Assembly: GCA_026224825.1 (NCBI GenBank)
Contig: JAMFRO010000022.1
Span: 372,001 to 436,000, forward strand
Length of the DNA stretch: 64,000 nucleotides
Source of the DNA: a bacterium
GTDB taxonomy: Bacteria; Pseudomonadota; Alphaproteobacteria; Acetobacterales; Acetobacteraceae
Direction of reading: 5' to 3'
Shown: in pieces, positions 33,924 to 58,110 of the stretch
Position numbering within the stretch: position 1 is the first letter of the stretch
Layout: each line of letters starts with the position of its first letter
Made by a program: the position numbers and the translations under genes
Notes under the pieces: generated by a model
Told to the model about the DNA's origin: nothing
What the model saw: the letters and a program-made list of their open reading frames with translations, nothing else
Database searches by the model: none

Positions 33924-36032
33924 TCAGGCCGCTGTGGCGAGTGCAGCCTCCGTGAGGGGCAAAACCGCCTGGTCGGCGGCGCGGCGCACCTCGACGCGCC
34001 CGGCGCGCGGCAGGCGCAGCTCGAAGCCGTGGATGCCGCTGCCAAGCCCGGCGGAGCGCAGATCGGCACGGTAACGATTGGCGAGCAGGCTGGTAAGGTA
34101 GGTACCGTCGAGCAACACATCCAGGCAGACCGGCACTTCCGGCGTGGCCTCGCATTGCGCCCAGCCGGTCAGTATGTGCGGCCCGGCGACATCCACAAAA
34201 CCGCGCAGTTTTTGTGCCTCGGGCAGGCCAGCCAGCCCTGCCCGCGCCCACAGCCGGCGCTGGATGTGCTGCAGATGGAAACCATCCTCCAGCCGGGGCA
34301 GCGGCGCGGACGAGCGAAAGGATGGACGATGCGAGGCCGCGTTCTGGAACATCCGCCGGCTACCCTCGTCGTAATAGCTCTCGGCCAGGCAGTTTTCGGC
34401 GAATAATAAAGCATGCTCCGCCAGTTCGAGATGGAGGTAATCCACCGGGGTTCCGCGTTCCGGCTGGATGATGCTGACGCCATTAACCAGGCGCCAGGCC
34501 GGCACCAGCATGCCATCGATCCAAATACCATGGCCGGGGGAAACCCAGAGATCGCGCCCCGGCACAGCTTCCGCCAGCGCGCCGCGGCGGATGCAGACCG
34601 GGAGCATGAGCGGATTGCCGGCAATGGCGGCGGCGGCATAGCTGCGCCGGCCGATCCATTCGACCGCACGCGGTCCCGCCGGGGTCATCACCGCATCGCC
34701 GATGACGATATCCTCCACCCTCGCCTCGCCGCTCGCCGTGCGGATATATGTGCCGGCGGCGAAGCAGAGCGCGTTTCCACCCGGCGGCGGGTCACCGCCG
34801 GAGATCTCCAAAGAGACCTCCAATAGGATGGGATGATCGGTGAGTGACAAAGTCACGCGCGAGGTATCTGTGAATGTCTCGATCGCGGTGGTGCCGACCA
34901 CCGGATCGTACAGCGAGAGCGTGGCGTAAACAGCATCCAGCGAGACGGTAACGGTCTCAGTTGGTGGGCTGAGCTGGGTATCCGTGGCATTGTCCCATAA
35001 TTGCGGTTCGGCCCAGAGCACGATGACATCCGCGCCGTCAGGCTTGACCAGCAGCATGGAACTGCCACCGGCGGGCAGATTGCCGACGGAATAGCCGAGG
35101 CCGCCAGCCGGCATACCCGCGCCGCCGGCAATGGTGTCTTGCAAGATGGTTGTAAGGTTATGGATGCCGACCGCAACCGGCTTGGGTGCGCCTGTATCGT
35201 CGAACAGCCCGTAGCCATCGTCGCCTTGCGGCGAACCGGGGGCGTAGGCGTCCAGCAGATCATACAGATCCGTATGCGCGATGCCCTGCTGTGCGGTGTC
35301 CATCAGCAGGTCCAGAGTATACACCTCCTGCACGTAAGGGCTGACATTGTCGGTGGAATAGCCGGTTTCCGTATAGACGGCCGGGGTGTTGGCGGAAGAG
35401 GCATTACCGAGGGCGGCGGCGCGGCTCACCCAATAGGCCGGCGCCTCATTTCCGTTCGGGTAAGGGTGCTGGGTATCGTAATCGGCCAGGCCGGCGGTGG
35501 TGGACAAATCCGGCCCGATGCCCACTGTACCAGCGCCATAGCCCGTAAAATAATCCACCGCGACACCGGCGAGTGCTGGGTCCGCCTTCACATCCGCATA
35601 GAGTGCGGCCTGCATCGCAAGCGCGCCCTGCAGCCCACTGGTGCCATCAAACGTGACCGGCCAATTATTGATCTCATTCGCCCCCTCGATGGCGATGACG
35701 CTGCCAGGCACGGCCTGTTGCACGGCCGAGATCTCCACCAGCTCGGCCTCGATATCGGCATTGCTCTCGACCCCGGTGCCGACGAGGAAGGTGAATTTTT
35801 CGCCCGCCTCAGCAATTTCAATGTAATGCGAGAGCGGTGCACTGCCCCCTGCACCATCCGAGATGCCATCCCGCAGTTCGTCTATGCCGAGATATTCTAG
35901 ATCTGAAATGATTAGCGAAACAGAAGCATATTCGCCATCGGTATAAGGAATATGCGTGTTGACGCCCAGGCCATCAAGGAAGGTCGCCGAAGACAAGGTG
36001 ACAAACGGATCGGACAAACGAGCTCCACGCAT
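33924..36032 (-). CDS. Glycosidase-like (clan GH-A) domain fused to a Hedgehog/intein (Hint) module
   Basis: A 702-residue protein without an evident signal peptide. Residues 1-310 resemble a clan GH-A TIM barrel. AIEGANEINNW (Glu120) fits the acid/base position and AVYTETGYST (Glu222) the nucleophile. A beta-sandwich-like stretch follows to about 410. The Hint domain starts at CFAAGTYIRT (Cys423), with SPGHGIWIDGMLVPAWRLVNG further on. The last 120 residues include ANRYRADLRSAGLGSG, a segment also found in the protein at 49392. Hint domains self-cleave or transfer acyl groups in other families; activity here is unproven. Substrate may be the locus polysaccharide. Confidence 0.8.
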   Translation of the reverse strand: MRGARLSDPFVTLSSATFLDGLGVNTHIPYTDGEYASVSLIISDLEYLGIDELRDGISDGAGGSAPLSHYIEIAEAGEKFTFLVGTGVESNADIEAELVEISAVQQAVPGSVIAIEGANEINNWPVTFDGTSGLQGALAMQAALYADVKADPALAGVAVDYFTGYGAGTVGIGPDLSTTAGLADYDTQHPYPNGNEAPAYWVSRAAALGNASSANTPAVYTETGYSTDNVSPYVQEVYTLDLLMDTAQQGIAHTDLYDLLDAYAPGSPQGDDGYGLFDDTGAPKPVAVGIHNLTTILQDTIAGGAGMPAGGLGYSVGNLPAGGSSMLLVKPDGADVIVLWAEPQLWDNATDTQLSPPTETVTVSLDAVYATLSLYDPVVGTTAIETFTDTSRVTLSLTDHPILLEVSLEISGGDPPPGGNALCFAAGTYIRTASGEARVEDIVIGDAVMTPAGPRAVEWIGRRSYAAAAIAGNPLMLPVCIRRGALAEAVPGRDLWVSPGHGIWIDGMLVPAWRLVNGVSIIQPERGTPVDYLHLELAEHALLFAENCLAESYYDEGSRRMFQNAASHRPSFRSSAPLPRLEDGFHLQHIQRRLWARAGLAGLPEAQKLRGFVDVAGPHILTGWAQCEATPEVPVCLDVLLDGTYLTSLLANRYRADLRSAGLGSGIHGFELRLPRAGRVEVRRAADQAVLPLTEAALATAA

Positions 36033-36164: not shown

Positions 36165-37331
36165 TTAAACCGCGCAGGGTTGCGCTGTCCTGGCTGCCAA
36201 TGCTTCCAGCGCCGCCCGCATCCTGGGCCCCATGCGGTTAGTGGATGGCGTGAAATACTCAAGCAGCGGTACGATGAGGCGCACGACATGCAGCGGGGCG
36301 TCAGCCGGGGTATAAACCACCCGGTAGATCGGCCGCTCGATGACGCGGCGCAAACAGTTTATCGCCACGGCCCATTCCGCCTCCAACCCCGCAGCCGGGG
36401 GTAATTGTGGAATATCCGTGAAGCGGGTCGAGGGTGTCCTGCTCGAAATAGCCTCGATCTGCCGGCTCACGCGTTCGGCTTCATCCCCCGGAATTTTTGA
36501 TTTTTCCGGCTCGCACAGGCCGGAGCGAAATGCCAGCCGGCTTTGCGCCGCTTCCGTGACGGCGCTCATCAGCGCCACCTCACGCTGGGCATGGCACCCC
36601 CAGCCGCCATTGAACAAGCGGCGCTCGGGCCTATCCGGCGCGCACAGGAATGCAGCGAAAAACGGCAGGCCGTAATCATTGGGAACATAACGGATGATCA
36701 GGCGCAGGCCATTAAGGGCGGCAACCTCGGCGACGCGCCGGGCGTCGCCTGGCAGATCGGCAGGATCGACCCAGGCCGCGTGATTGCGAATGAATTCGAG
36801 GGACCAGATATCACGCTCGATCAACTCGTAAAGCGCGTGGATGCTGGCTTCCAGCACGCTATTGCCGGACGCCAGCCCATTGCTTGACGCACCAAAGAGC
36901 GATGCGCCGGCATCCGAGGGCGCCGGATTGAAAACCAGCTCCGCCGGAAGCCAGACTTTTGCGCCACTCTCCACATTCTCCGCAACGACGAGCAAGAGTG
37001 GTTGCACTGGATCGGCTTGCTTGCCAAGCTTTGGCGCGAATTCCAGTATGGGACCACAGTCACAGGGACTCCCCAAGCGTGTCTGCAACGATGCGCTACC
37101 TGGCTCGGAGAAATAGGATTCGATCGCCTCCATATAAGCGCCGATTTCCGCATCGAGCGGCACACGCCCCTTGCCGAATGAATATGGATAGGCCGCAGGG
37201 CTTCGTTCGCTGACAAACACCGGAACACCGAGACAATCCAATGCCGTGATGTCGCGCACCGATTGAATGCCGGCCACTTCCGTCCAGGCTTTGGCATGGC
37301 GCAACGTAATGTGCGGCGGAATGATACGCAT
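36165..37331 (-). CDS. YcaO-family enzyme of the hydrogenase-like locus
   Basis: About 388 residues. YcaO enzymes use ATP to activate peptide backbone amides, giving azolines, thioamides or amidines. The ATP-site signature SNGLASGNSVLEASIHALYE followed by LIERD is clear near residue 145-170, and EAAQSRLAF follows later. The ATG at 37331 has GAAGGG 4 bases upstream. The C-terminus (AARTAQPCAV) lacks the PxPxP ending of many azoline-forming members, and no TfuA or E1-like partner is nearby. It lies 80 bases downstream of a 36-residue peptide gene and in line with the hydrogenase-like gene. That peptide, or the hydrogenase homologue itself, is the probable substrate. Confidence 0.88.
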   Translation of the reverse strand: MRIIPPHITLRHAKAWTEVAGIQSVRDITALDCLGVPVFVSERSPAAYPYSFGKGRVPLDAEIGAYMEAIESYFSEPGSASLQTRLGSPCDCGPILEFAPKLGKQADPVQPLLLVVAENVESGAKVWLPAELVFNPAPSDAGASLFGASSNGLASGNSVLEASIHALYELIERDIWSLEFIRNHAAWVDPADLPGDARRVAEVAALNGLRLIIRYVPNDYGLPFFAAFLCAPDRPERRLFNGGWGCHAQREVALMSAVTEAAQSRLAFRSGLCEPEKSKIPGDEAERVSRQIEAISSRTPSTRFTDIPQLPPAAGLEAEWAVAINCLRRVIERPIYRVVYTPADAPLHVVRLIVPLLEYFTPSTNRMGPRMRAALEALAARTAQPCAV

Positions 37332-37411
37332 ACTGCCCTTCAATACAAAGCGAGGCGGACCAGCATGTGATCCGCCTCTCCTCGGTTAACAGCCCGTCTG
37401 GGTGATCGGAT

Positions 37412-37522
37412 CTATTTCTCGCGGCGCTCTTCTTCCTCTTTGTCCTTTTTACAATGCATGCCGGTTGCATCGGCGCGGGAGATGAGGAGTTGCTGCAGTA
37501 TGTTCAGTGCTTCATCAGACAT
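37412..37522 (-). CDS. 36-residue peptide between YcaO and hydrogenase-like genes
   Basis: A small gene with a good Shine-Dalgarno (GGAGAG, 4 bases before ATG). The N-terminal half (MSDEALNILQQLLISR) would form an amphipathic helix. It is followed by ADATGMHC with the only cysteine at residue 24, then a highly charged Lys/Glu/Arg tail. It lies 72 bases after the hydrogenase-like gene and 80 before ycaO, all on the same strand. It is a plausible substrate for YcaO, perhaps at Thr20-Cys24, or a small structural subunit. The charged tail is unlike typical RiPP core regions, so the precursor idea is an inference. Confidence 0.6.
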   Translation of the reverse strand: MSDEALNILQQLLISRADATGMHCKKDKEEEERREK

Positions 37523-37594
37523 GATACTCTCCATTGTGGAATCATATTCATTGTGGGCCAGGGTGCACGATTCAGCTTGCACGACGAATCCGAT

Positions 37595-39412
37595 TTAAAT
37601 AGATCCATCGGTATTCACCTCTATGGTTGAAGCAAAATCGGTGCCTTCGAAGATCAGGTGCAGTTTGCAGGGCATGCAGGGGTCAAAACTCTGCGCCACC
37701 CGCACCAGATCTATGCCGCGAAAACCGGCCGGGCCAGACCAGTTTGATTCGATGATGGGCGTATTGAGCAGCGCCTGCTCGCACGGGCCCAATGCCCCCC
37801 ATGGGGTGCGCGGGCCGCCATTGATGCGCGACGGCACTGCGATTTGATAATTGCTGATCGTGCCACCATCGAGAACCACCCAATGCGCCAGCAGCCCGCG
37901 CCCGGCGCCCCCGAAGCCGACCCCGAGCCGGGTTCCACTTGCGGGAATTTCAAATTCTGTCTTCATCGACTGATCGCCGCGTGCGAGCAACGCCTTGGCA
38001 CGATTGGTGCTCTCAAAGGTTACCATCAAGCTGAATGCGAGCGCATAGGCGCGGGCGCGATTACGTTCGAAACTGTTCCAGACCGGCGGCACAATCCATT
38101 CAAGACGTTCAGCCTGCAATTTGCCGTCTGGCACGTGGAATACCACGCTATGGCCGGTGGCTTCAACAAACGCGCTGTCCGGCATTTTCCGGGCCAGCGC
38201 GCTGATATAAAGCCTGGTATAGGCGCCGACCTCAAACACATTGCGATCCCAGGCTATGGATGTCGCCCAGCTATATGCTGCACCGGAATGTTTTTCCGGA
38301 TTGCGGTTCATGGTCTTGTTCCATGGATGTTGCTGCGCCAGCGGATTCCCGGCGGGATCCGTGCGATACGGGTAGCCGCACCAAGGATCATAGAAAGAAC
38401 TATCGACAAACTCCTCAATGCCGCTGTTCAGACGGGACAGATCGGTCGTAACGAGCGCGCCATCGATAACCGCGCCCGGCGTCGACCAGCGTTTCTCACC
38501 CCAAAGGTCACAGTTTTCATAGCACCCATCGTAATAATCTTCATGATCCCATAGCCCAAAATCGACCATATTCGCAGGTGCCCGGCCAAGGTCACGAAAT
38601 GCCGGAGCGACGGCGTAGAGAAAATCGAAGATATCGTCCCAGATTCGGGCACAGCGCTTGGTATAATCGATAAACGGCCGCAATGTTGTCAGAAAGCCAT
38701 CGAGCTGCGCCTCATGCAACGAGAACGAAACCCCACCGGGGCAGATCGATTCGGAATGAGGATATTTTCCACCGAGCAGGCGATAGGCCTCGCGCGCGAT
38801 CCGCATCATCTCCAGCGCCTCAGCGAAGAGTTTCGCCCCACGGTTCAAATCCGTCATGATCGCGCCGATGGTGGCATAGCCGTGCGTGCCGGCATAAGCG
38901 GCGGGCGCGGTCTGCGCCTTGGCCCAGATCTCAGGATTCGTGGCCCGCACCGCCTCCTCGGCATAATCCGGCCCGCACAGCACGAAAAGATGCATGGCGT
39001 TGTCGCTGAGATACTGGCAGCTCAGCAGCAGATTGCGCGCGACTATGGCCAAAGGCGGCGGTTTTATCCCCAGAGCCATTTCCAGGCACTGCGCGGATGT
39101 CGCCGCATGCACGCCGCCGCAAATACCCGAGGCGGTGGAGCTGATCAGCCCGGCCTCTTCGAGACTCCGGCCAGGCAGCAGGGTTTCATAACCGCGATAC
39201 ATTGTGCCGACGGAAGCGACATCGGACAATTGATGCGTCACTAGATCGATGCTGCAGTGCAACGCAAGACCACCACCGATGCGTTGTAACGGGTCAGCGC
39301 TGGTAAAGGACTGCAGCCCGTTCATGAGCTCAACCTGCGCCCATAACTCATTGCCGGAGCGCGTTGCGCGCGGCATATCAGCGACCAGTAACGGGCTCGT
39401 CATATCGCGCAT
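37595..39412 (-). CDS. [NiFe]-hydrogenase large-subunit homologue with altered active site
   Basis: About 605 residues. It keeps YRGYETLLPGR, the region GRGLLAHWVVLDGG-TISNYQIAVPS, the GPRTPWG loop and the C-terminal SFDPCMPCKLH (Cys579, Cys582, His585). A 20-residue tail follows, as in unprocessed large subunits. The N-terminal Cys motif is changed: SGICGGVHAATS has Cys98, but RICGxCxxxH is shortened and the second Cys is gone. The usual EGH motif reads QRIGGG, so the proton-relay Glu is missing. The ATG at 39412 is chosen; GTG at 39445 is possible. No small subunit is present. A hydrogenase-derived Fe or NiFe protein with another function is likely. Confidence 0.85.
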   Translation of the reverse strand: MRDMTSPLLVADMPRATRSGNELWAQVELMNGLQSFTSADPLQRIGGGLALHCSIDLVTHQLSDVASVGTMYRGYETLLPGRSLEEAGLISSTASGICGGVHAATSAQCLEMALGIKPPPLAIVARNLLLSCQYLSDNAMHLFVLCGPDYAEEAVRATNPEIWAKAQTAPAAYAGTHGYATIGAIMTDLNRGAKLFAEALEMMRIAREAYRLLGGKYPHSESICPGGVSFSLHEAQLDGFLTTLRPFIDYTKRCARIWDDIFDFLYAVAPAFRDLGRAPANMVDFGLWDHEDYYDGCYENCDLWGEKRWSTPGAVIDGALVTTDLSRLNSGIEEFVDSSFYDPWCGYPYRTDPAGNPLAQQHPWNKTMNRNPEKHSGAAYSWATSIAWDRNVFEVGAYTRLYISALARKMPDSAFVEATGHSVVFHVPDGKLQAERLEWIVPPVWNSFERNRARAYALAFSLMVTFESTNRAKALLARGDQSMKTEFEIPASGTRLGVGFGGAGRGLLAHWVVLDGGTISNYQIAVPSRINGGPRTPWGALGPCEQALLNTPIIESNWSGPAGFRGIDLVRVAQSFDPCMPCKLHLIFEGTDFASTIEVNTDGSI

Positions 39413-39445
39413 AATCAACGAAATCCTCAACTGAAGCTTCGCCAC

Positions 39446-39711
39446 CTGAACGCACGCCAGGCCGCCTTAACGCACACCGAGAGTCAAGTACGAATGCCAC
39501 CCAAACGAGCTTGATTGGTTACCATTGTCGTGTGAAAAACTAGCATGGCGCTGGACAGCAGGCAACAGCTTGTGATAGTGATTCCGGGGTCAAACACAAC
39601 TTTTAATTTTAAGACCGCGAAACGTTTTGTGGCCCCTATAAGCATCTTGTGATGGCTAGCTTGTGGTCAGCGGGCGAATGTTCTGAACAATCGGGATAAG
39701 GTCGGGGGCAC
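39446..39711. promoter_or_regulatory. Divergent control region of the hydrogenase-like/hyp locus
   Basis: About 265 bases, A+T-richer than the genes, separate the start of the hydrogenase-like gene (minus) from hypF (plus). Promoters for both directions must lie here or just inside the genes. I could not find a convincing -10/-35 or sigma-54 pair by eye; TGGCAT-N7-TTGA on the minus strand is only a loose sigma-54 match. Confidence 0.4.
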
Positions 39712-42102
39712 ATGTACGGAAGCGCGCGCACCCGGGAGGGGGAGCAATCTGACAGCCTACAAACGGTTGAGATTCGCATCCGCGGTACGGTGCAGGGCGT
39801 AGGCTTCAGGCCGGCGGTATGGCGCCTGGCGCAGGAAAATGACCTTGTCGGACATGTATTTAACGACAGCCAGGGTGTCTTTATCAGAACGACAGGGGAA
39901 CAGAAGCAGATCGATCATTTTTTGAGCTGCCTCGAAACAAATCCACCACCGCTGTCGTATATTGAAACGGTCGAAATCCAACCGCTCAAGCAGGTTGTGT
40001 GCTTCCAAGGCTTTGAAATTGCCCCGAGTATCGGTGGTCAGACACGAACCAGCGTCACCGCCGATGCGGCCACCTGCCGGGCGTGCTGGGAGGAGATGCT
40101 CGACCCGCGCGAGCGGCGATACCTGTACCCTTTCACGAACTGCACGCATTGCGGACCGCGCATATCAATTGTCACCGGAGTGCCATATGACCGGAAACAC
40201 ACGACCATGGCCGCTTTCGCCATGTGCGACGATTGTACGGCCGAGTATCGCGATCCAACCGACCGACGCTTTCATGCCCAGCCGATCGCCTGCCCGGCCT
40301 GTGGGCCGCAGCTATGGCTCGAGTCCTTAAATAATACGCTCACAAACGATGACATGTCAGTTACACCTCTGGATGCAGCCGTACGCCTGCTGAAGGACGG
40401 GAAAATTCTCGCCATACGCGGTCTCGGCGGGTTTCATCTGGCATGCGATGCGGCCAATGCGGAGGCGGTGCATCGATTGCGCGCGCGTAAGCAAAGGTTC
40501 GGCAAGCCGTTTGCGCTGATGGCGCGGGATACCGCGGTTATACAGCGTTTTGCATCGATCTCCCCGCTTGAAATCGCGCTCCTGCAAAGCCCAGCCGCAC
40601 CGATTGTGCTTCTGCCCGCTGACGGACCGCAGCGCCTGCCCGGGAGCGTGGTACCAGGGCTGGCGACATTGGGCTTCATGCTGCCCTATACGCCGCTGCA
40701 CAGGCTGATCCTGGCGGCGTTCGACGTGCCGTTGGTCATGACCAGCGGCAATATCGCCCATGAGCCCCAGCTTACGGATAATGCGGCGGCGCGGGTCAAG
40801 CTCGCCGGCATTGCCGATGCCGTGCTTTGCCATGACCGGGAGATCGCCGGGCGGATCGATGATTCCGTCGTACGGATCATGTCCGGGCGCGTCCGGATTT
40901 TGCGGCGGGCGCGGGGCTATGCGCCAAAACCTGTCACCTTGCCGAAGAGCTTTGCGGACGCACCGGAGATCCTGGCTTTCGGCGGGGAGGTGAAGTCCAC
41001 TTTCTGTCTGATCAAGGATGGTGCTGCCATACTCTCCCCGCACCAAGGGGATTTGGAGAACCCTGCGACGTTGGATGACTACCACAGGAACATGGAGCTA
41101 TACTCAGCACTTTATGATTCCAGCGCGCGCGTTTATGCGGCCGATCTCCATCCGGAATATTTATCCAGTAAGATGGCCAGGCAGAGAGCTGCGGATGGTG
41201 TACTGCATGAGATTCAGCATCATCACGCGCATATCGCCAGCGCGCTGGCGGAAAACCACCGGGAGCTGGATGCGCCGCCCGTGCTAGGGGTGGTGCTGGA
41301 TGGGCTCGGCTACGGCGCGGACGCAAGCATCTGGGGCGGCGAGTTTTTACGCGCAGATTATTACGGCTACACCCGCCTGGCGGCATTCAAGCCGGTGGCG
41401 ATGATCGGCGGGGCACAGGCGATTCACGAGCCGTGGCGCAACCTCTATGCCCATCTGGTTGCGGCGTTTGGCTGGGACGGGTTCCAGCACGCGTTTGGTG
41501 GGCTGGAGATCGCACAATATCTTGCGGCCAAGCCGCGCGCGATGATCGACCGCATGCTGGAAAACGGAATGAACGTGCCTTTGGCCAGCTCCTCTGGACG
41601 GCTGTTCGATGCCGTGGCCGCGGCGGCGGGGCATTGCCGGGACAAAGTGCTGTTCGAAGGTCAGGCCGCGATGGAATTGGAAGACCGCGTCGATGATGCT
41701 GCGCGCACCGCCGCGAAGGCGCGCGGGGTTTATGAATTTGCACCGACGTTGTCAGACAGCGGCTTGGAAATTCTGGAGCCACGGCCAATGTGGCGCGCCT
41801 TGCTCGCAGATCTGCAAACGGAAACACCGGTCCCCGTCATCTCCGCCCGGTTCCATCTCGGGCTCGCGGCGGCGGTCGCGGATATGGCGGTGCGGCTCGC
41901 CACGCAATCGCAGCTCGGCACCATCGTGCTGACGGGCGGGTGTTTCCAGAACAAAACTTTGTTCGAAGCCTGCGTACGCCACATCGAGGACAGCGGGCTG
42001 ACCTGCCTGACGCAATCGCAGGTGCCGATGAATGACGGTGGGCTTGCACTGGGCCAAGCCGCCATTGCGGCGGCAAGAGAGATTAAAACGCGGGCCGGCT
42101 GA
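39712..42102 (+). CDS. hypF: Carbamoyltransferase HypF
   Basis: A 796-residue HypF, which uses carbamoyl phosphate and ATP to load a carbamoyl group on HypE as the source of the cyanide ligands of the NiFe-hydrogenase iron. Domain order is N-terminal acylphosphatase (IRGTVQGVGFRPAVW), two zinc fingers (CRACWEEML to CTHCGPR, and CDDCTAEY to CPACGP), a YrdC-like domain (LAIRGLGGFHLACDA), then the Kae1-like carbamoyltransferase with HHHAHIASALAEN. All parts look intact. It opens a five- or six-gene plus-strand operon divergent from the hydrogenase-like gene. Confidence 0.95.
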   Translation: MYGSARTREGEQSDSLQTVEIRIRGTVQGVGFRPAVWRLAQENDLVGHVFNDSQGVFIRTTGEQKQIDHFLSCLETNPPPLSYIETVEIQPLKQVVCFQGFEIAPSIGGQTRTSVTADAATCRACWEEMLDPRERRYLYPFTNCTHCGPRISIVTGVPYDRKHTTMAAFAMCDDCTAEYRDPTDRRFHAQPIACPACGPQLWLESLNNTLTNDDMSVTPLDAAVRLLKDGKILAIRGLGGFHLACDAANAEAVHRLRARKQRFGKPFALMARDTAVIQRFASISPLEIALLQSPAAPIVLLPADGPQRLPGSVVPGLATLGFMLPYTPLHRLILAAFDVPLVMTSGNIAHEPQLTDNAAARVKLAGIADAVLCHDREIAGRIDDSVVRIMSGRVRILRRARGYAPKPVTLPKSFADAPEILAFGGEVKSTFCLIKDGAAILSPHQGDLENPATLDDYHRNMELYSALYDSSARVYAADLHPEYLSSKMARQRAADGVLHEIQHHHAHIASALAENHRELDAPPVLGVVLDGLGYGADASIWGGEFLRADYYGYTRLAAFKPVAMIGGAQAIHEPWRNLYAHLVAAFGWDGFQHAFGGLEIAQYLAAKPRAMIDRMLENGMNVPLASSSGRLFDAVAAAAGHCRDKVLFEGQAAMELEDRVDDAARTAAKARGVYEFAPTLSDSGLEILEPRPMWRALLADLQTETPVPVISARFHLGLAAAVADMAVRLATQSQLGTIVLTGGCFQNKTLFEACVRHIEDSGLTCLTQSQVPMNDGGLALGQAAIAAAREIKTRAG

Positions 42103-42128
42103 GGCAGCGCACAAAAGGGAGCAGCGCC

Positions 42129-42404
42129 ATGTGTTTGGGAATTCCGGGGCAGATCGTGAAAATCACTGATGCACAGCGCAAACTTGCGCTGGTGGACGTG
42201 AGCGGCGTGCAGCGTGAGGTGAACGTGGCCTGCGTCATCGAGGAGGGCAGACCGGTGGAAGACTGCATCGGCTATTGGGTTCTAGTGCATGTAGGGTTCG
42301 CCATGAGCCGTATCGATGAAGCCGAGGCGGCGGCGACTTTACGCGTGCTGATTGAACTCGGCGAAGTGCAGCAGGAGCTGGCGGCCATGGCGGGTGCTGC
42401 CTGA
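42129..42404 (+). CDS. hypC: Hydrogenase maturation chaperone HypC
   Basis: A 91-residue HypC/HybG-type protein. It begins MCLGIPGQIV; after removal of Met the N-terminal Cys2 binds the Fe(CN)2CO unit with HypD and carries it to the large subunit. GYWVLVHVGFAMSRIDEAEA is also typical. It has only one homologue in the window and lies 26 bases after hypF and 32 before hypD. Its retained Cys2 suggests that iron-cofactor delivery is functional in this locus. Confidence 0.95.
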   Translation: MCLGIPGQIVKITDAQRKLALVDVSGVQREVNVACVIEEGRPVEDCIGYWVLVHVGFAMSRIDEAEAAATLRVLIELGEVQQELAAMAGAA

Positions 42405-42436
42405 ATAGCGGTGAGCGGTAAAAAGGAGGGGGCAAC

Positions 42437-43600
42437 ATGAAATACGCCGATGAATTCAGAGATCCTGAAAAAGCCAAGACTCTGCTGCGCGAAATCAACA
42501 GCCTGGCGGTGAAATTGCGCAAGGGCAAGACACGCCCCCTGCAGATCATGGAGGTCTGCGGCGGGCATACCCATGCGATCTTCCGTTATGGCATTGAAAC
42601 CATGCTGCCGGATGAGATCGAGCTGGTGCACGGGCCGGGCTGCCCTGTATGCGTGCTGCCAATGGGCCGGGTAGATGATTGCGTGAAACTGGCGCAAATC
42701 CCCGGCCTCATCCTCACCACTTTCGGCGATGCCATGCGCGTGCCCGGCTCCGAGAAAAGCCTGCTGCAGGCCAAGGGCGAAGGTGCCGATATCCGCATGG
42801 TCTATTCGCCGCTTGATGCGCTGCGCATCGCGCGCGAGAATCCGGAGCGCGAGGTCGTGTTCTTCGCGCTCGGTTTCGAGACGACCATGCCGAGCACGGC
42901 CATGACCGTGCTCAACGCCGAGGCCGAGGGCATCAAGAATTTTTCGCTGTTCTGTAACCATATCACCATCCCCGCCACGATGAAGGCCATTCTCGACTCC
43001 CCCGAGCTAGAGCTCGACGGATTTCTCGGGCCAGGACATGTCAGCATGGTGATCGGCAACGGGATCTACAACTTCATCGCCCAGGATTACGGCAAACCGC
43101 TCGTGGTCACCGGCTTCGAGCCGCTCGACGTGCTGCAGGCGCTGTGGATGGTTCTGAAGCAGCTCGATGAAGGGCGCGCCGAAGTGGAAAACCAATATGC
43201 GCGCGTCGTGCCCGATAACGGCAATGCCGTGGCGCTTGGTGCCATCGAGAAGGTTTTCGAATTGCGCGAATTCTTCGAATGGCGCGGGCTGGGTTCGATC
43301 GATCATTCCGGGGTACGGATGCGCAAACCCTATCAGGCCTATGACGCCGAAACAAAATTCGGCATCCGCACGGTCAAGATCGAAGATCCGGCGGCATGTC
43401 AATGTGGCGATGTGCTGAAAGGGATCATCAAGCCCTGGGAATGCAAAGTGTTCGGCACATCCTGCACGCCGGAAATGCCATTGGGCGCGCTCATGGTATC
43501 GTCCGAAGGCTCCTGCGCCGCCTATTATCAGTTCGGCGATGTCGAGAAGATCCATAACAAACGGGCCCAGGCTCAACGCGCCGAGGGGGTCGCACCATGA
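42437..43600 (+). CDS. hypD: Hydrogenase maturation protein HypD
   Basis: A 387-residue HypD, the [4Fe-4S] scaffold on which the Fe(CN)2CO group is assembled together with HypC. Motifs are the N-terminal MEVCGGHTHAIFRYG with the catalytic cysteine, HGPGCPVCVLP with a thiol pair, GFETTMPSTA, and the C-terminal cluster-binding cysteines in CQCGDVLKG, CKVFGTSCTPEMP and GSCAAYYQ. A ribosome binding site (AAGGAGG) precedes the ATG. It overlaps hypE by four bases (ATGA). Everything needed for function appears present. Confidence 0.95.
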   Translation: MKYADEFRDPEKAKTLLREINSLAVKLRKGKTRPLQIMEVCGGHTHAIFRYGIETMLPDEIELVHGPGCPVCVLPMGRVDDCVKLAQIPGLILTTFGDAMRVPGSEKSLLQAKGEGADIRMVYSPLDALRIARENPEREVVFFALGFETTMPSTAMTVLNAEAEGIKNFSLFCNHITIPATMKAILDSPELELDGFLGPGHVSMVIGNGIYNFIAQDYGKPLVVTGFEPLDVLQALWMVLKQLDEGRAEVENQYARVVPDNGNAVALGAIEKVFELREFFEWRGLGSIDHSGVRMRKPYQAYDAETKFGIRTVKIEDPAACQCGDVLKGIIKPWECKVFGTSCTPEMPLGALMVSSEGSCAAYYQFGDVEKIHNKRAQAQRAEGVAP

Positions 43601-44676
43601 GCAGCGTGCAACTGGCCCCTGCCCCCCTCCACCGCCGGAGATTGGGGCGTGTCCAACTGCCCAAGGTGACCATGGCGCATGGCGGCGGCGGCAAGGCGAT
43701 GCGCGATCTCATCGATGATGTATTCGTGTCGGCATTCGATAATGATCTGCTTTCGACCGGAGAAGACCAGGCGCGATTTCACCTCCGTGACCTGGCCGCC
43801 TATGGCGACCGGCTGGCGATGACAACCGATTCTTACGTGATCCATCCTCTGCGCTTCCCCGGCGGTGATATCGGCAAGCTCGCGGTCTGCGGCACGATCA
43901 ACGATCTGGCGGTCGGCGGCGCAAAACCGCTGTATCTGAGCTGCGCGGTCATCATCGAAGAAGGGTTCGAGGTCGAGACTTTGCGCGAGATCGCGCAATC
44001 GATGGCGCGCACCGCCCTTGCCGCCGGGGTTTCAATCGTTACCGGTGATACCAAGGTCGTTAACCGCGGTGCCTGCGACAAATTATTCATCAACACCACC
44101 GGTATCGGCGTAATCCGCGAAGGTCTCGAACTTGGCGCCGGCAATGTGCGGCCGGGCGATGCGATACTGGTCAACGGACTCATGGGCGACCATGGCGCGG
44201 CGATTCTGTGCGCGCGCGGTGACATGGCCCTCTCCACACCAATAGAGAGCGATTGCGCGGCCTTGCATGGGCTGATCGACACGCTGCTCACCGCCGCCCC
44301 CGGCACAAGGTTTCTGCGCGATGCCACACGGGGCGGGCTCGCCACGGTGCTCAATGAAGTCGCCGATGCATCGCAAATCGGCATACTCATCGATGAAAAT
44401 CTCGTACCGCTGCGCGCGGAGGTGAAAGGATTTTGCGAAATCCTCGGCCTCGATCCGCTCTATCTCGCCAATGAGGGCAAGATCGTCTGCGCCGTGCCGC
44501 CCGAACAGGCGCCGGCGGCTTTGGCCGCAATGCGCGGACATGTACATGGCCGGGAAAGTGCCATCATCGGCCATGCCACCAATGAGCGGCCGGGCCGCGT
44601 GGTGATGCAGACCGTGCTCGGCGGGCGGCGCATCGTGGACATGCTGGTGGGTGAGCAATTGCCTAGGATCTGCTGA
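43597..44676 (+). CDS. hypE: Hydrogenase maturation protein HypE
   Basis: A 359-residue PurM-like ATPase that dehydrates the thiocarbamate on its C-terminal cysteine to a thiocyanate, the CN donor. The C-terminus is LPRIC with the essential terminal Cys. HGGGGKAMRDLIDDVF near the start and the central PurM features (GDIGKLAVCGTINDLAVGGA, VTGDTKVV) are intact. It is translationally coupled to hypD. The N-terminal extension of about 15 residues before LPKVTMAHGGGG is longer than usual. Confidence 0.95.
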   Translation: MSSVQLAPAPLHRRRLGRVQLPKVTMAHGGGGKAMRDLIDDVFVSAFDNDLLSTGEDQARFHLRDLAAYGDRLAMTTDSYVIHPLRFPGGDIGKLAVCGTINDLAVGGAKPLYLSCAVIIEEGFEVETLREIAQSMARTALAAGVSIVTGDTKVVNRGACDKLFINTTGIGVIREGLELGAGNVRPGDAILVNGLMGDHGAAILCARGDMALSTPIESDCAALHGLIDTLLTAAPGTRFLRDATRGGLATVLNEVADASQIGILIDENLVPLRAEVKGFCEILGLDPLYLANEGKIVCAVPPEQAPAALAAMRGHVHGRESAIIGHATNERPGRVVMQTVLGGRRIVDMLVGEQLPRIC

Positions 44677-44694
44677 CATCAAGGAGAAACCATA

Positions 44695-45339
44695 ATGCAC
44701 GACAAAAATTCCATCGCACCTGTCGAGGAAACCACGGTCCGGATCCAGGATCAGGGCACCATCGTGGAGCTGGATTATAACGGTGCCATGACCGCGCATC
44801 GGGGCTCCTTATGGTGGGGCACAGCCGTTGGCTACCGCGCCATGCAGGCCGCCGCCGAGGCCTTGTCGCAGAACGGGCTGTGGAGCCGTGACGAACTCTA
44901 TGTCGTCGGCGCGCATCCAGGGCCTGGGGTGCGCGATGCGATTAACTATGTGACCAACACTGTTGGACGAGACCGTTACAAAGTCGTGACCGAGGCCGAT
45001 TGCGGCATGAAATGCAACAGCTCGATGAAGTTCGAATGGTGGGTCAGCGATGGCCATAAAACGGCGTTCGTGAAATTGCGCGAGGATTTCGTACCGCTAT
45101 CCTTCTACGAATTATCCGACCGGCTCGGCACGGATGCCGAAACCAAGGAAGACGACCGGCTGTTTGAGATTTTTAAAGTTACACTCTCCACCAAAATATG
45201 GGCGGCACCGCTGGAGCGGAATTTCAGCGTGGTGGTGAGCGAGCAGCCGCTGGCGGTGGGCGATGTGCCGGCTGAGGCACAACGCGCCGATTACTGGAAC
45301 GATCTGAAAGCAAAACAAATAGAGGACGCGCAGAGCTAG
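44695..45339 (+). CDS. FmdE-like domain protein in the hyp operon
   Basis: A 214-residue soluble protein. The segment HRGSLWWGTAVGYRAMQAAA followed by DAINYVTNTV has the spacing of FmdE domains (HGHxCPGxxxGyRaa, then cavDaiqxxtG). FmdE domains are found with molybdenum or tungsten formylmethanofuran dehydrogenases and with many uncharacterised redox clusters. The usual metal-binding Cys in the first motif is absent here, whereas EADCGMKCNSS provides a CxxxC pair. AAGGAG precedes the start by 8 bases. Its position in the operon suggests a role in cofactor handling or as a partner of the hydrogenase-like protein. Confidence 0.55.
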   Translation: MHDKNSIAPVEETTVRIQDQGTIVELDYNGAMTAHRGSLWWGTAVGYRAMQAAAEALSQNGLWSRDELYVVGAHPGPGVRDAINYVTNTVGRDRYKVVTEADCGMKCNSSMKFEWWVSDGHKTAFVKLREDFVPLSFYELSDRLGTDAETKEDDRLFEIFKVTLSTKIWAAPLERNFSVVVSEQPLAVGDVPAEAQRADYWNDLKAKQIEDAQS

Positions 45340-45378
45340 CGCCTTCCCATCAACTAATTTTTAAGCAGAGAGGACAGA

Positions 45379-47352
45379 ATGAAGTACATACGTGAAACTT
45401 TGAGAAAAACCGCCGGGCTTGCAACCCTGGTGACGAGCCTGGCCGTTGGCTATGCGGGCACCGCCTCAGCCCAGGTGCTCCCCGTCAGCCCGCCGCCCGA
45501 TTCGACCTGCGTTGCACCGCCCGCGATTTTCAACGGCTGGTTCCAATCCGGCCATCCCGGTCTCAACCTGCCGGTAAACCCGGCCGACAGCATCACCTTC
45601 CAGTCCAGCAGCAATTGCAATTTCTATCTCTGGTCGGAGCAGATGTATCTATGGCTAACCTCGCCGGCAACCGGTGCCTATGTGGGTGGCCATGTGTTCG
45701 ATTCACAGGTTTTCTATCAGGTCAGCGGCGGCAATCTGGTGCAGCAGGGCGGCCTTTTGGCGAACGGCCAACCAAAACCTCTGAACCTCTCGCTACGCGC
45801 CGCACAGGCCGGGCCGGATGGCCTGCCGGTCGTGATCGACAGCAAAGGCGATCTGCGTGAATTCGTCACAGCACCCAGCACATCGGGCATCAGCCTGCTC
45901 AGCGCCACGAGCGGTGCGAAGCTGGCCCATGTCGCCGAGGTCAAAACCGCCAGCGACGGCAAGGCATTGTTCCTTGACAGCGCGGGCAAGAGTGTCGCCT
46001 TCTCGCCCAAGGTGACTGCCGACATGCTGCCCGCAACGCTCGGCCGGCTGGCACCTCTGGCCACACCGCCGAAGGGACTCACAGCGCTGAGTGTCACGAG
46101 CGAGCGCGCGCAGATCGCCGCTGCGCTCACCGCCAAGAACGTGCTGATTCAGGTCATCACCAAAACCGGCCCCGTCTTCGTTGAAGCCGGCACCGGCATC
46201 GTCGAGGGGCTCGAGCCGGGACAGGCCGGCAGGAGCAGCGGCGTGCTGATCTCGCAGAATAATTCGGTGATCTATTACGAAACCCTCGTCAACGACGTCT
46301 ATGCCTGGTACCTCACCGGCCGTAAAACGCCGGGCGGCATCGCGCCGTTGTACAACGGCAATGTTGCAGCCACTTACGGTCTGTTCCCCACCACGGCAGC
46401 GGATCTGCAATCGATCACCAACTTCTCATCAACCCATGGCGGACCGTCCAGCTTCCCGGATGGCGATGCACTGGCCTTCGAAGCCAAGCTTTCCTGGGTG
46501 GATGCAAGCACTCTGCCCAATGGCGCGCAGGGTTACATCACCATGCCGGCCTTTGTGCCGCTATATGACAAGAGCAACCCTGTAAATTGGAAGCTTCTGC
46601 CGCAGTCCAAGTTCACCACTGTGGCACTCATCGGCGTGCATGTCGTGGGCAGTGTCGCTGGTCATCCCGAAATGGTCTGGGCCACCTTCGAACATCAGGA
46701 CAACACACCGCTTGCCACCTATCAATATAATTCAGGCGGCCAGCCGGTTACCGTGAATCAGAACACCACGGGCAACTGGTTGTTCTCCTCGAATGGCGGC
46801 CCCGGGCCTTATAACACCCAGTTGGGCACATATTGCTCCAACCCCAGCTCCCCCCCGGCGCCCTGCACATCGAGCAACCCCGCCGGGACCATTGTCGCCA
46901 CGTCGCCGCCAACGCCAATCGGAAAGAGCGATATTCTGCGTGAAAAACCCTGGGGTGTCGGCACCGGCCCAAATCCTCCCAATCAGGAGGATGCGACGGA
47001 TGCCGCCTCAAATACAGAAGTTATCTCGCTCGATACCAACGTGCGTTCGCAGCTTGCCGCCGCAGGGGCCAGTGCCGACACACGCTACAACTATCTCTTC
47101 ATCGGCTCCACCTGGACTTTTGGCGGCGGCGAGCCCAATGGCATCTATCCCCTCAATCCCCAGGTGAACGACGAGATCGGCACCAGCGTGCTGCTCAACA
47201 GCACGATGGAAACGTATCAGCAAGGCAACAGTACAGCCTATGGCACAGGCACGAATTGCTTCGGCTGCCATACCGCCTCGGGCTCAGACCGAAAGGTAAA
47301 GGCTGACACGGAGGTCAGTCACATCTTCGGCTCGATCAACGCGTTGCCATAA
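45379..47352 (+). CDS. Secreted large protein with one C-terminal c-type haem site
   Basis: A 657-residue exported protein with a signal peptide (cleavage likely after ASAQ, about residue 31). Most of it is beta-rich and Gly/Ser/Thr-rich without a recognised domain. Near the C-terminus (about residues 630-634) TNCFGCHTAS gives a single CxxCH haem-attachment motif, followed by SHIFG. It is the last gene before a strong terminator and lies 39 bases after the FmdE-like gene, so it belongs to the hyp operon. It could be the periplasmic electron carrier or catalytic partner of the hydrogenase-like system. Confidence 0.7.
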   Translation: MKYIRETLRKTAGLATLVTSLAVGYAGTASAQVLPVSPPPDSTCVAPPAIFNGWFQSGHPGLNLPVNPADSITFQSSSNCNFYLWSEQMYLWLTSPATGAYVGGHVFDSQVFYQVSGGNLVQQGGLLANGQPKPLNLSLRAAQAGPDGLPVVIDSKGDLREFVTAPSTSGISLLSATSGAKLAHVAEVKTASDGKALFLDSAGKSVAFSPKVTADMLPATLGRLAPLATPPKGLTALSVTSERAQIAAALTAKNVLIQVITKTGPVFVEAGTGIVEGLEPGQAGRSSGVLISQNNSVIYYETLVNDVYAWYLTGRKTPGGIAPLYNGNVAATYGLFPTTAADLQSITNFSSTHGGPSSFPDGDALAFEAKLSWVDASTLPNGAQGYITMPAFVPLYDKSNPVNWKLLPQSKFTTVALIGVHVVGSVAGHPEMVWATFEHQDNTPLATYQYNSGGQPVTVNQNTTGNWLFSSNGGPGPYNTQLGTYCSNPSSPPAPCTSSNPAGTIVATSPPTPIGKSDILREKPWGVGTGPNPPNQEDATDAASNTEVISLDTNVRSQLAAAGASADTRYNYLFIGSTWTFGGGEPNGIYPLNPQVNDEIGTSVLLNSTMETYQQGNSTAYGTGTNCFGCHTASGSDRKVKADTEVSHIFGSINALP

Positions 47353-47367
47353 CCCTGACAAAATAGC

Positions 47368-47402
47368 GCTCCTGGCAGGTCCGCCTGCCAGGAGCACTTT
47401 TT
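47368..47402 (+). terminator. Rho-independent terminator of the hyp operon
   Basis: A perfect 12-base-pair stem (GCTCCTGGCAGG and its complement) with a 4-base loop TCCG is followed by ACTTTTT. It lies 16 bases after the stop of the haem protein gene and before the dipeptidase-like gene. It marks the right end of the hypF-to-haem-protein transcript. Confidence 0.9.
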
Positions 47403-47417
47403 CAAACCGAACAGACC

Positions 47418-48215
47418 ATGCCCATTCTCGATCTTGCTTATGAAGTGCCGGTCATCGCACCGGAGCGCTGTACTGGAAGCTACGCTTCCATCCCCTGCGA
47501 TACCACGGACCCGCGCTGGCATGAGCCTCTGGTCCCGTTGGAAACCGTCGGTGTGGCGTATGAATCGCACCATGCGCGCAAAGACGGTGAAAACTGGCCG
47601 TATCTCGCGCCAGTGCCCGGCGCCCGCCAGCCTATATGGCTGCGTCAAACCGTCGCCGCGAAACTGGCCAGGGTCAATACCCGGCTGAAACAATTCGGTA
47701 CAGAGCTGATCGTGCTGGACGGGTATCGCACCATGGCCTGCCAGCAGGGGCTGTGGGATTTTTACGCCCGCGAGGCTGTCCGCGCGCTGCCGGAGGGAAC
47801 CCCGCCACTATGGCGGCGGTGGGCCGCGCGACATGCCAGTGATCCGGGCGATTTCCGCGAAGACGACCCGGCAACATGGCTGGCCCATGCCACAGGCGGC
47901 GCGGTGGATCTGTCCCTGCGCGACCTCAATTCCGGAGCGTATTGCAATCTCGGCGGCCGCTTCGAGGAGATCGACGACATCGCCGTGACAGATTATTTCG
48001 AGCGGCAGTTAGCAACGGGCGCGATTGCCGCCAGCGATCCACGGCTGCAATACCGGCGCCTGCTGCATTGGGCGATGTGCTGCGAGGGTTTCGAGAATGA
48101 CCCCTCCACCTTCTGGCATTATGACTGGGGCAACCAGCTCTATGTGAAAACGGCACAAGCCCTGCGCACCAATGCGGCACGTGCCGCCTGGTACGGCTAT
48201 ATCACCCCGCCATGA
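47418..48215 (+). CDS. VanX/M15D-type D-Ala-D-Ala dipeptidase homologue
   Basis: A 265-residue protein of peptidase family M15D, which hydrolyses D-Ala-D-Ala or related dipeptides with zinc. LIVLDGYRTMACQQGLW and LAHATGGAVDLSL (zinc ligands His and Asp) fit the family, and FWHYDWGNQ holds the third zinc ligand His. The residue two before WH, Glu in the EWWH motif of VanX (catalytic base), reads Thr here (STFWHY), so catalysis may be weakened or a different residue may serve. It is separated from the hyp operon by a terminator. No signal peptide is seen. Confidence 0.75.
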   Translation: MPILDLAYEVPVIAPERCTGSYASIPCDTTDPRWHEPLVPLETVGVAYESHHARKDGENWPYLAPVPGARQPIWLRQTVAAKLARVNTRLKQFGTELIVLDGYRTMACQQGLWDFYAREAVRALPEGTPPLWRRWAARHASDPGDFREDDPATWLAHATGGAVDLSLRDLNSGAYCNLGGRFEEIDDIAVTDYFERQLATGAIAASDPRLQYRRLLHWAMCCEGFENDPSTFWHYDWGNQLYVKTAQALRTNAARAAWYGYITPP

Positions 48216-57839: not shown

Positions 57840-57926
57840 TGGTGCGGGCGGTCGGAATCGAACCGACACTCTATCACTAGAACCGGATTTTGAGTCCGGC
57901 GCGTCTACCAGTTCCACCACGCCCGC
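57840..57926 (-). tRNA. tRNA-Leu (CAA)
   Basis: An 87-base tRNA with a 7-base-pair acceptor stem (GCGGGCG/CGCCCGC), an anticodon loop CTCAAAA giving anticodon CAA, a long variable arm as expected for leucine, the GGTTCGATTCC T-arm and an encoded CCA end. It reads UUG codons. Confidence 0.95.
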
Positions 57927-58034
57927 AACGCGCTCCGTTCTGTAGAGAAGCCCCGCCCGAAAATCAACCAGCCAGATAAAAACACCACCCCGGCTTGCGT
58001 CCCTCTTTCGCTTTGGCTATAGCCGCGCGACCGG

Positions 58035-58110
58035 TCCCGAATAGCTCAGCTGGTAGAGCAAGCGACTGTTAATCGCTCGGTCGTAGGTTCGAGTCCTACT
58101 TCGGGAGCCA
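58035..58110 (+). tRNA. tRNA-Asn (GTT)
   Basis: A 76-base tRNA with acceptor stem TCCCGAA/TTCGGGA, D-arm TAGCTCAGCTGGTAGAGCA, anticodon loop CTGTTAA (anticodon GTT), T-arm GTAGGTTCGAGTCCTAC and an encoded CCA end. It lies 108 bases from the tRNA-Leu gene on the opposite strand. Confidence 0.97.

Follow-up and report, generated by a model that had tools for sequence, protein, structure and literature searches.

A Hyp-associated hydrogenase large-subunit homologue with an invariant serine in place of its first L1 cysteine points to a type of iron protein not yet described

What does the machinery that builds the Fe(CN)2CO group of [NiFe]-hydrogenases serve at a locus where the ordinary partners of a hydrogenase are missing? 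The question is raised by a divergent gene cluster in a 64,000-nucleotide stretch of DNA from an Acetobacteraceae bacterium (assembly GCA_026224825.1, contig JAMFRO010000022.1, positions 372,001 to 436,000; the whole stretch is called the window), in which genes for HypF, HypC, HypD and HypE lie beside a homologue of the hydrogenase large subunit, here named HupL*, a YcaO enzyme and a small peptide. A sequence-only reading of the window had proposed a new type of metalloprotein complex that joins hydrogenase iron chemistry to peptide backbone modification. We find that the HupL* gene unit is real and conserved across genera and families. The strongest evidence, absent from the earlier account, is an invariant change of cysteine to serine in HupL*. 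The system suggests a form of iron protein that has yet to be described, and with a probability of about one half we take HupL* to be an Fe(CN)2CO protein without nickel that stops at an open, unprocessed stage of maturation, and to which a YcaO-modified peptide is added in one branch.

GTDB species genomes were scanned with an alignment of the window HupL* (P0002) and a 52% relative, which gave 61 loci. When these and the window were compared at L1, eight loci and the window were of the serine type, 51 were of the cysteine type and two were fragments without the region. A search of 245 genomes from the family of the Undibacterium genome G685 returned 11 matches, comprising G685, three later HupL* members (G775, G875 and G922), four hydrogenases with intact motifs and three weak matches that were not inspected; L1 of the three later members agrees with that of the first nine. 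In the alignment this motif reads T-A-S-G-I-C in 12/12 HupL* and R-A-C-G-V-C in 51/51 related hydrogenases, or more fully S-(S/A)-T-A-S-G-I-C-G-G-V-H against S-S-R-A-C-G-V-C-G-G-V-H. S106 of HupL* pairs with the first L1 cysteine of HofG (5aa5), which we take to be a ligand of nickel only. The second L1 cysteine is kept in all 12 HupL* and both L2 cysteines in the 11 that are readable there (the L158 copy is cut off). The four metal-binding cysteines in L1 and L2 that define [NiFe]-hydrogenases are thus incomplete in every HupL*.

Around this position, C109, C590, C593, H113, R516, P538, S539 and D588 are identical in nine HupL* and in all readable related hydrogenases, and presumably they play the roles known for them from hydrogenase structures. 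Eleven positions separate the 12 HupL* from the 51 others, eight of them without exception; R104T, C106S, T540R and R585Q are among the eleven, and these discriminating substitutions suggest a rebuilt second shell. H596, at the site of the maturation protease, is histidine in 52/52 readable others and H, E, Y or Q in HupL*.

Having lost both a ligand and partner genes, HupL* could be the decayed remnant of an ordinary hydrogenase, left beside leftover maturation genes. However, HupL* forms a single clade with support of 100/100, nested within intact hydrogenases, in a tree of nine of the twelve members that came with software warnings about long branches and unusual composition. The ratio of nonsynonymous to synonymous substitution rates (dN/dS) is 0.25, 0.21 and 0.13 in three pairs, the third with saturated dS, and indicates purifying selection. 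A decaying hydrogenase was rejected on the single clade and the selection, and with serine in 12/12, intact Hyp motifs and new neighbours in common it is highly improbable. The [NiFe]-hydrogenase large subunit closest to HupL* is probably of the group 1l/1h branch.

The partners of a hydrogenase were searched for genome-wide in nine HupL* genomes and, as controls, in two hosts of intact related hydrogenases; this scope applies unless stated otherwise, and several of the HupL* genomes are metagenome-assembled genomes (MAGs). The HycI protease (PF01750) was found in none of the nine and in both controls. A cognate small subunit was found in both controls and in one of the nine, as a weak 4e-4 piece in the Methyloprofundus MAG G686, in a search that did not include other small-subunit types. 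PF14720 had no match over its cut-off in 12 HupL* genomes, the control hosts being outside this search, and a weak match in G681 was rejected as a small subunit since it is placed opposite a CheA-like gene. A CooC-like ATPase was present in 2/2 controls and in 0/12 HupL* genomes. HypA (PF01155) had no match over its cut-off in the nine, where G686 gave one weak piece, nor in the two controls. Hydrogenase partners elsewhere in the genome had been named by the sequence-only reading as the finding that could overturn it, and the searches did not overturn it; in these genomes, several of them MAGs, HycI was found in 0/9, HypA over its cut-off in 0/9, and a cognate small subunit was not found in 8/9, HypB not being searched for. 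Its argument from missing partners holds for the protease and the small subunit and is weak for HypA. By those defining features that are open to testing, the HupL* unit is not a hydrogenase.

These data bear on whether HupL* might still be bimetallic, with S106, perhaps as alkoxide, and C590 holding nickel or another metal in an unusual hydrogenase or redox enzyme that uses a new electron partner. Three of the four cysteines remain, as does the iron pocket, T540R and R585Q would fit a rebuilt second shell, and working hydrogenases without a cleaved tail are described in PMC12134894. The want of a CooC-like ATPase (0/12), of the HycI protease (0/9), of any clear cognate small subunit and of HypA over its cut-off argues the other way, and we regard a bimetallic HupL* as unlikely, though deserving some credence.

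Other hydrogenase genes were seen along the way. The sole other PF00374 match of the window genome (on contig C26) has no CxxC motifs by eye, and a normal hydrogenase elsewhere in this genome was rejected as a client of its Hyp proteins; the match is the large subunit of a hydrogenase-4/complex-I-like operon (L065, 24-6534). G686 carries a second hydrogenase large-subunit gene that is split over several frames by damage or assembly error (L163, 2716-4215), so the Hyp proteins of this genome may serve more than HupL*, with two clients in all. The intact relatives L083, L074 and L103 have four to five small membrane-like proteins between the small- and large-subunit genes, plus a CooC-like ATPase.

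At the window locus the genes, their directions and a terminator-like hairpin are all present at or very near the positions given by the sequence-only reading. YcaO, the peptide and HupL* are read leftward, and HypF, HypC, HypD, HypE and the FmdE-like protein, then a secreted-looking protein with a single CxxCH, rightward, from a shared region at 39446-39711.

36165-37343, minus strand: YcaO enzyme (TTG start at 37343 or ATG at 37331; PF02624, 6e-48; kept in five relatives)
37352-37378, minus strand: hairpin with a T-containing tail between the peptide and YcaO genes (pattern match)
37412-37522, minus strand: 36-residue precursor-like peptide with invariant His-Cys (equivalent position in 6/6 YcaO loci)
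37595-39445, minus strand: HupL*, hydrogenase large-subunit homologue, GTG start (PF00374, NiFeSe_Hases, 6e-55; clade of 12 members)
37667-37678, minus strand: L2 cysteines C590 and C593 of HupL* (alignment)
39107-39136, minus strand: L1 motif T-A-S-G-I-C-G-G-V-H of HupL*, residues 104-113, with S106 in place of the first L1 cysteine (aligned to 5aa5)
39446-39711, no strand: divergent intergenic region, presumably with both promoters (from position alone)
39712-42102, plus strand: HypF (TIGR00143, 748.6 bits, over cut-off)
42129-42404, plus strand: HypC with Cys2 (PF01455, HupF_HypC, over cut-off)
42437-43600, plus strand: HypD with motif cysteines (TIGR00075, over cut-off)
43597-44676, plus strand: HypE with C-terminal PRIC (TIGR02124, over cut-off)
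44695-45339, plus strand: FmdE-like protein (Pfam 0.001, below cut-off; AlphaFold model matches 2glz and 2gvi)
45379-47352, plus strand: secreted-looking protein whose single haem-binding CxxCH lies close to the C-terminus (no Pfam family; CxxCH and signal-peptide-like start by eye)
47365-47398, no strand: two-way terminator-like hairpin (15 pairs, longest found in the stretch)
47418-48215, plus strand: VanX-like (peptidase M15) protein without the VanX catalytic Glu at its place (PF01427, 8e-12)

The hairpin at 37352-37378 is a possible attenuator, of the sort that favours expression of a precursor. The promoter scan gave nothing above chance, and the 11 terminator-like sites of the window are no excess over the 12.1 found in shuffles. 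The hairpin near 47402 had been taken as the end of the unit; it is present, but the VanX-like gene beyond it belongs to the cluster in relatives, so the unit is longer than 36165-47402. The window genome measures 4.27 Mb in 108 contigs and is 94% complete. Adjoining the YcaO gene, at 33924-36032 on the minus strand, is a gene for a large protein whose first half looks glycosidase-like and whose C-terminal region looks Hint-like (by eye), and tRNA-Leu (caa) and tRNA-Asn (gtt) lie on opposite strands at 57840-58110.

Family matches over the cut-offs and motif cysteines bear out the claim that all of HypF, HypC, HypD and HypE, the proteins required for Fe(CN)2CO, are intact at the window locus. 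Cys2 of HypC and the C-terminal PRIC of HypE are kept in 8/8 loci examined, as are the three cysteine regions of HypD (four of these loci read by eye). In these families HypF and HypE make cyanide, and HypC and HypD assemble Fe(CN)2CO. Since the motif cysteines are intact, Fe(CN)2CO is probably still made.

HupL* is found in 12 genomes including that of the window, six with YcaO and six without it in the DNA examined. The divergent layout with YcaO recurs in five further loci (L070, L071, L072, L073 and L124; the contig of L070 ends inside HypF), where HupL* is 62-74% and YcaO 54-63% identical to the window proteins. A chance cluster was rejected on these equal genes and their divergent order, and the order is conserved beyond the strain, in other genera and families, as had been predicted. 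In L094, L096 and L097 the core stands without a YcaO gene, and G775, G875 and G922 share the collinear order HypF-HypC-SIS-HypD-HypE-FmdE-PRTase-VanX-HupL* (PRTase, phosphoribosyltransferase). Four of the six YcaO-less loci are in hosts of one Oxalobacteraceae family, one is in Methyloprofundus and one in an unplaced proteobacterium; one HupL* member is in Undibacterium flavidum LX15W. HupL* members are rare. Judged by E-values, no further one was found in even samples of 385 genomes of the class and 299 of the family of the window, a search of 296 genomes from the family of G680 gave only the two known HupL* at E 1e-100, and none was found in the six other same-genus genomes listed. The patchy distribution suggests transfer. 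A role in anti-phage defence was rejected, as PADLOC gave matches for 0/6 proteins.

The YcaO enzyme shares ATP-site motifs with MJ1094 (6pe3), its best PDB match, and they were placed by alignment to it. Its best NCBIfam match is the McrA-thioamidating family TIGR03266, with 149 bits against a cut-off of 365, and it is below the cut-off of TIGR03604 but passes that of TIGR00702, a general domain. Among the ten window proteins scanned there was no E1-like or TfuA partner, the rest of the genome not being searched; standalone YcaOs exist. The window protein P0001 had no match in viral contigs.

Between HupL* and YcaO a short frame is present in 6/6 YcaO loci, in two copies in L073 and L124, and GGAG precedes the start in each of the eight copies. 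The peptides begin with a leader of some 20 residues that is rich in leucine; after it come small residues, a single variable residue, His-Cys and variable tails. Their motif, which was built after the peptides had been seen, occurs in six of six real intergenic stretches and in 0/2000 dinucleotide shuffles of each. The codon evidence is thin: for copy b of L073/L124 dN/dS is 0.11 (27 codons), for L070/L071 it is 0.57 (42 codons), and for copy a it was not computable. The peptide is real, and its eight copies are putative substrates of YcaO. Alternatively, YcaO could modify the backbone of HupL*, as its nearest annotated relative does that of McrA, with the peptide as a structural or regulatory partner. 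The matches to TIGR03266 and MJ1094 suggest this, but the score is far under the family cut-off and a peptide with a conserved leader-like part and His-Cys adjoins YcaO in 6/6 loci, doubled in two of them, which leaves modification of HupL* quite improbable.

The sequence-only reading counted YcaO and the peptide among the parts of the unit. They do occur together in 6/6 loci, but are not core, as six HupL* loci are without YcaO. The peptide is only seen in loci with YcaO. YcaO is absent from G684, G685 and G686 in whole-genome searches (3/3), and the examined DNA of the other three YcaO-less members showed neither YcaO nor a peptide of this kind. No substitute peptide was recognised in the YcaO-less loci, where two of the three scans used the alphaproteobacterial motif only. 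That the modified peptide supplies the lost thiol, or a thiazoline or thioamide sulphur, from outside, so that HupL* and the peptide would share a working nickel-less site, seems to us rather unlikely.

The FmdE-like protein scores 19.6 bits in Pfam against a cut-off of 22.9. Its AlphaFold model (pLDDT 82) matches 2glz at 8.2e-5 with TM of 0.51/0.69, and also 2gvi, both of them FmdE structures. The gene is present in 11/11 loci whose contig reaches it. On plasmids of Methylocystis and Methylosinus, relatives of this protein are encoded within operons for iron/siderophore transporters (L066, 8941-9495; L067, 8989-9513), which by analogy hint at metal or chelate handling; a third, L068, carries no annotation. 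The VanX-like gene is found in 10/12 loci, the remaining two (L070 and L072) being at contig ends. H, D and H of its product align to 1r44, while the Glu of E-W-W-H is Thr in the window copy and Thr, Val, Tyr or Leu in seven other copies aligned. In VanX these residues are the zinc ligands and the catalytic Glu; with this Glu missing, binding rather than cleavage is possible.

The secreted haem protein had also been counted as a part of the unit; it is frequent, but not universal. It stands beside HupL* in 6/12 loci (window, L071, L094, L096, L156 and L157) and was not seen beside L073, L124 and L097, nor in the 1.7 kb available at L072; the contigs of L070 and L158 end too soon to show it. 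Among G775, G875 and G922 it precedes the HypF cluster in both members whose contigs extend that far. C-F-x-C-H is conserved in all four copies that were read to the end and aligned. The structure model of window protein P0008 has a pLDDT of 30, and a PDB sequence search with it gave no match. Thirteen plasmid records match P0008, and the one inspected lies in a conjugation region.

A SIS gene is present in 10 loci and PRTase in 9. With such biosynthesis-like neighbours, and with the VanX-like and FmdE-like proteins, HupL* could be a scaffold that passes Fe(CN)2CO to the peptide or to an organic ligand made by SIS and PRTase, giving a diffusible organometallic cofactor or a metallopeptide. An uncleaved tail would keep the site open for this, and the His-Cys of the peptide is invariant. 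However, the window locus has neither SIS nor PRTase, the other branch has no peptide, and no acceptor is known. By eye, a SIS-like frame also lies between hypC and hypD beside the intact hydrogenase of L074 (17389-18087), so SIS may be a general Hyp accessory. A scaffold role is improbable.

We return to HupL* as a nickel-free Fe(CN)2CO protein, for which, from the anatomy of the locus, we infer the following chemistry. Cyanide from HypF and HypE would go into Fe(CN)2CO assembled by HypC and HypD, and the group would be seated in HupL* on the iron-bridging cysteines C109 and C593. HupL* would then stay open, unprocessed and iron-only, a state that is normally a maturation intermediate, because one outer nickel cysteine is serine, the cleavage histidine is not kept, and neither HycI nor a clear cognate small subunit was found. 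The FmdE-like, SIS, PRTase and VanX-like proteins would act as accessory factors. In one branch YcaO and ATP would modify the peptide backbone at or near the invariant His-Cys, and, as the weakest step, the modified peptide would most likely bind, or be joined to, the open iron site. In those species where it is present, the secreted single-haem protein probably serves as redox partner or as user.

This reading agrees with PMC12134894, according to which Fe(CN)2CO is inserted ahead of nickel and the site is kept open by the C-terminal tail up to its cleavage. Several points weigh against it. The same review states that C241 of E. coli HycE is essential for HypC binding and that some active hydrogenases have no cleaved tail. 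By our reading of the numbering, C241 is the first L1 cysteine, so ordinary loading of Fe(CN)2CO may fail in HupL*, where this contact is missing. The serine could ligate another metal. YcaO and the peptide cannot be needed for the core function, since half of the HupL* loci are without them, and the window locus itself has no SIS or PRTase. The partner absences are weaker than the counts imply because several genomes are MAGs, and that of HypA is unspecific and without weight, as both intact-hydrogenase controls likewise had no PF01155 match.

Among known systems, HupL* resembles the [NiFe]-hydrogenase large subunit in its PF00374 homology, iron-side cysteines, L2 DPCxxC, pocket residues and HypCDEF neighbours, and it is 53% identical to a protein of G667. 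It is unlike it in having Ser for the first L1 Cys and Thr for the L1 Arg, in the unconserved cleavage His, and in having no clear cognate small subunit, HycI protease or CooC-like ATPase in the genomes searched. Like the Fe(CN)2CO-loaded apo-large subunit intermediate, as PMC12134894 describes it, HupL* would hold iron, no nickel and an uncleaved tail, but here this would be the final state, and HupL* lacks the cysteine by which HycE makes its necessary contact with HypC. With YcaO-dependent ribosomally synthesised and post-translationally modified peptides (RiPPs) and the McrA YcaO (TIGR03266; MJ1094), the locus shares ATP-site motifs and an adjacent leader-type peptide with an invariant Cys; unlike them, its YcaO is under the TIGR03266 and TIGR03604 cut-offs, sits with HypCDEF and has no E1-like or TfuA protein among the ten window proteins. 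A candidate RiPP cluster of decRiPPter, with HypE and HypF homologues and an ATP-grasp, likewise has Hyp enzymes beside a proposed peptide product, but the available text of PMC7794033 reports no other hyp homologues detected and mentions no hydrogenase homologue or YcaO. Among the papers listed by searches of the open-access literature, with preprints outside their scope, no title dealt with this gene combination.

To our knowledge, Fe(CN)2CO chemistry is known only from [NiFe]-hydrogenases. If our reading is true, this chemistry has a second use without nickel, and one branch couples it to peptide backbone modification, which would give a new place to look for YcaO products. HupL* would also provide, in nature, a protein stopped at a step of maturation that is difficult to trap, so that questions on HypC transfer, on what the tail does and on the lost cysteine would become testable. 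Since one member is in a named strain, Undibacterium flavidum LX15W, such experiments look possible.

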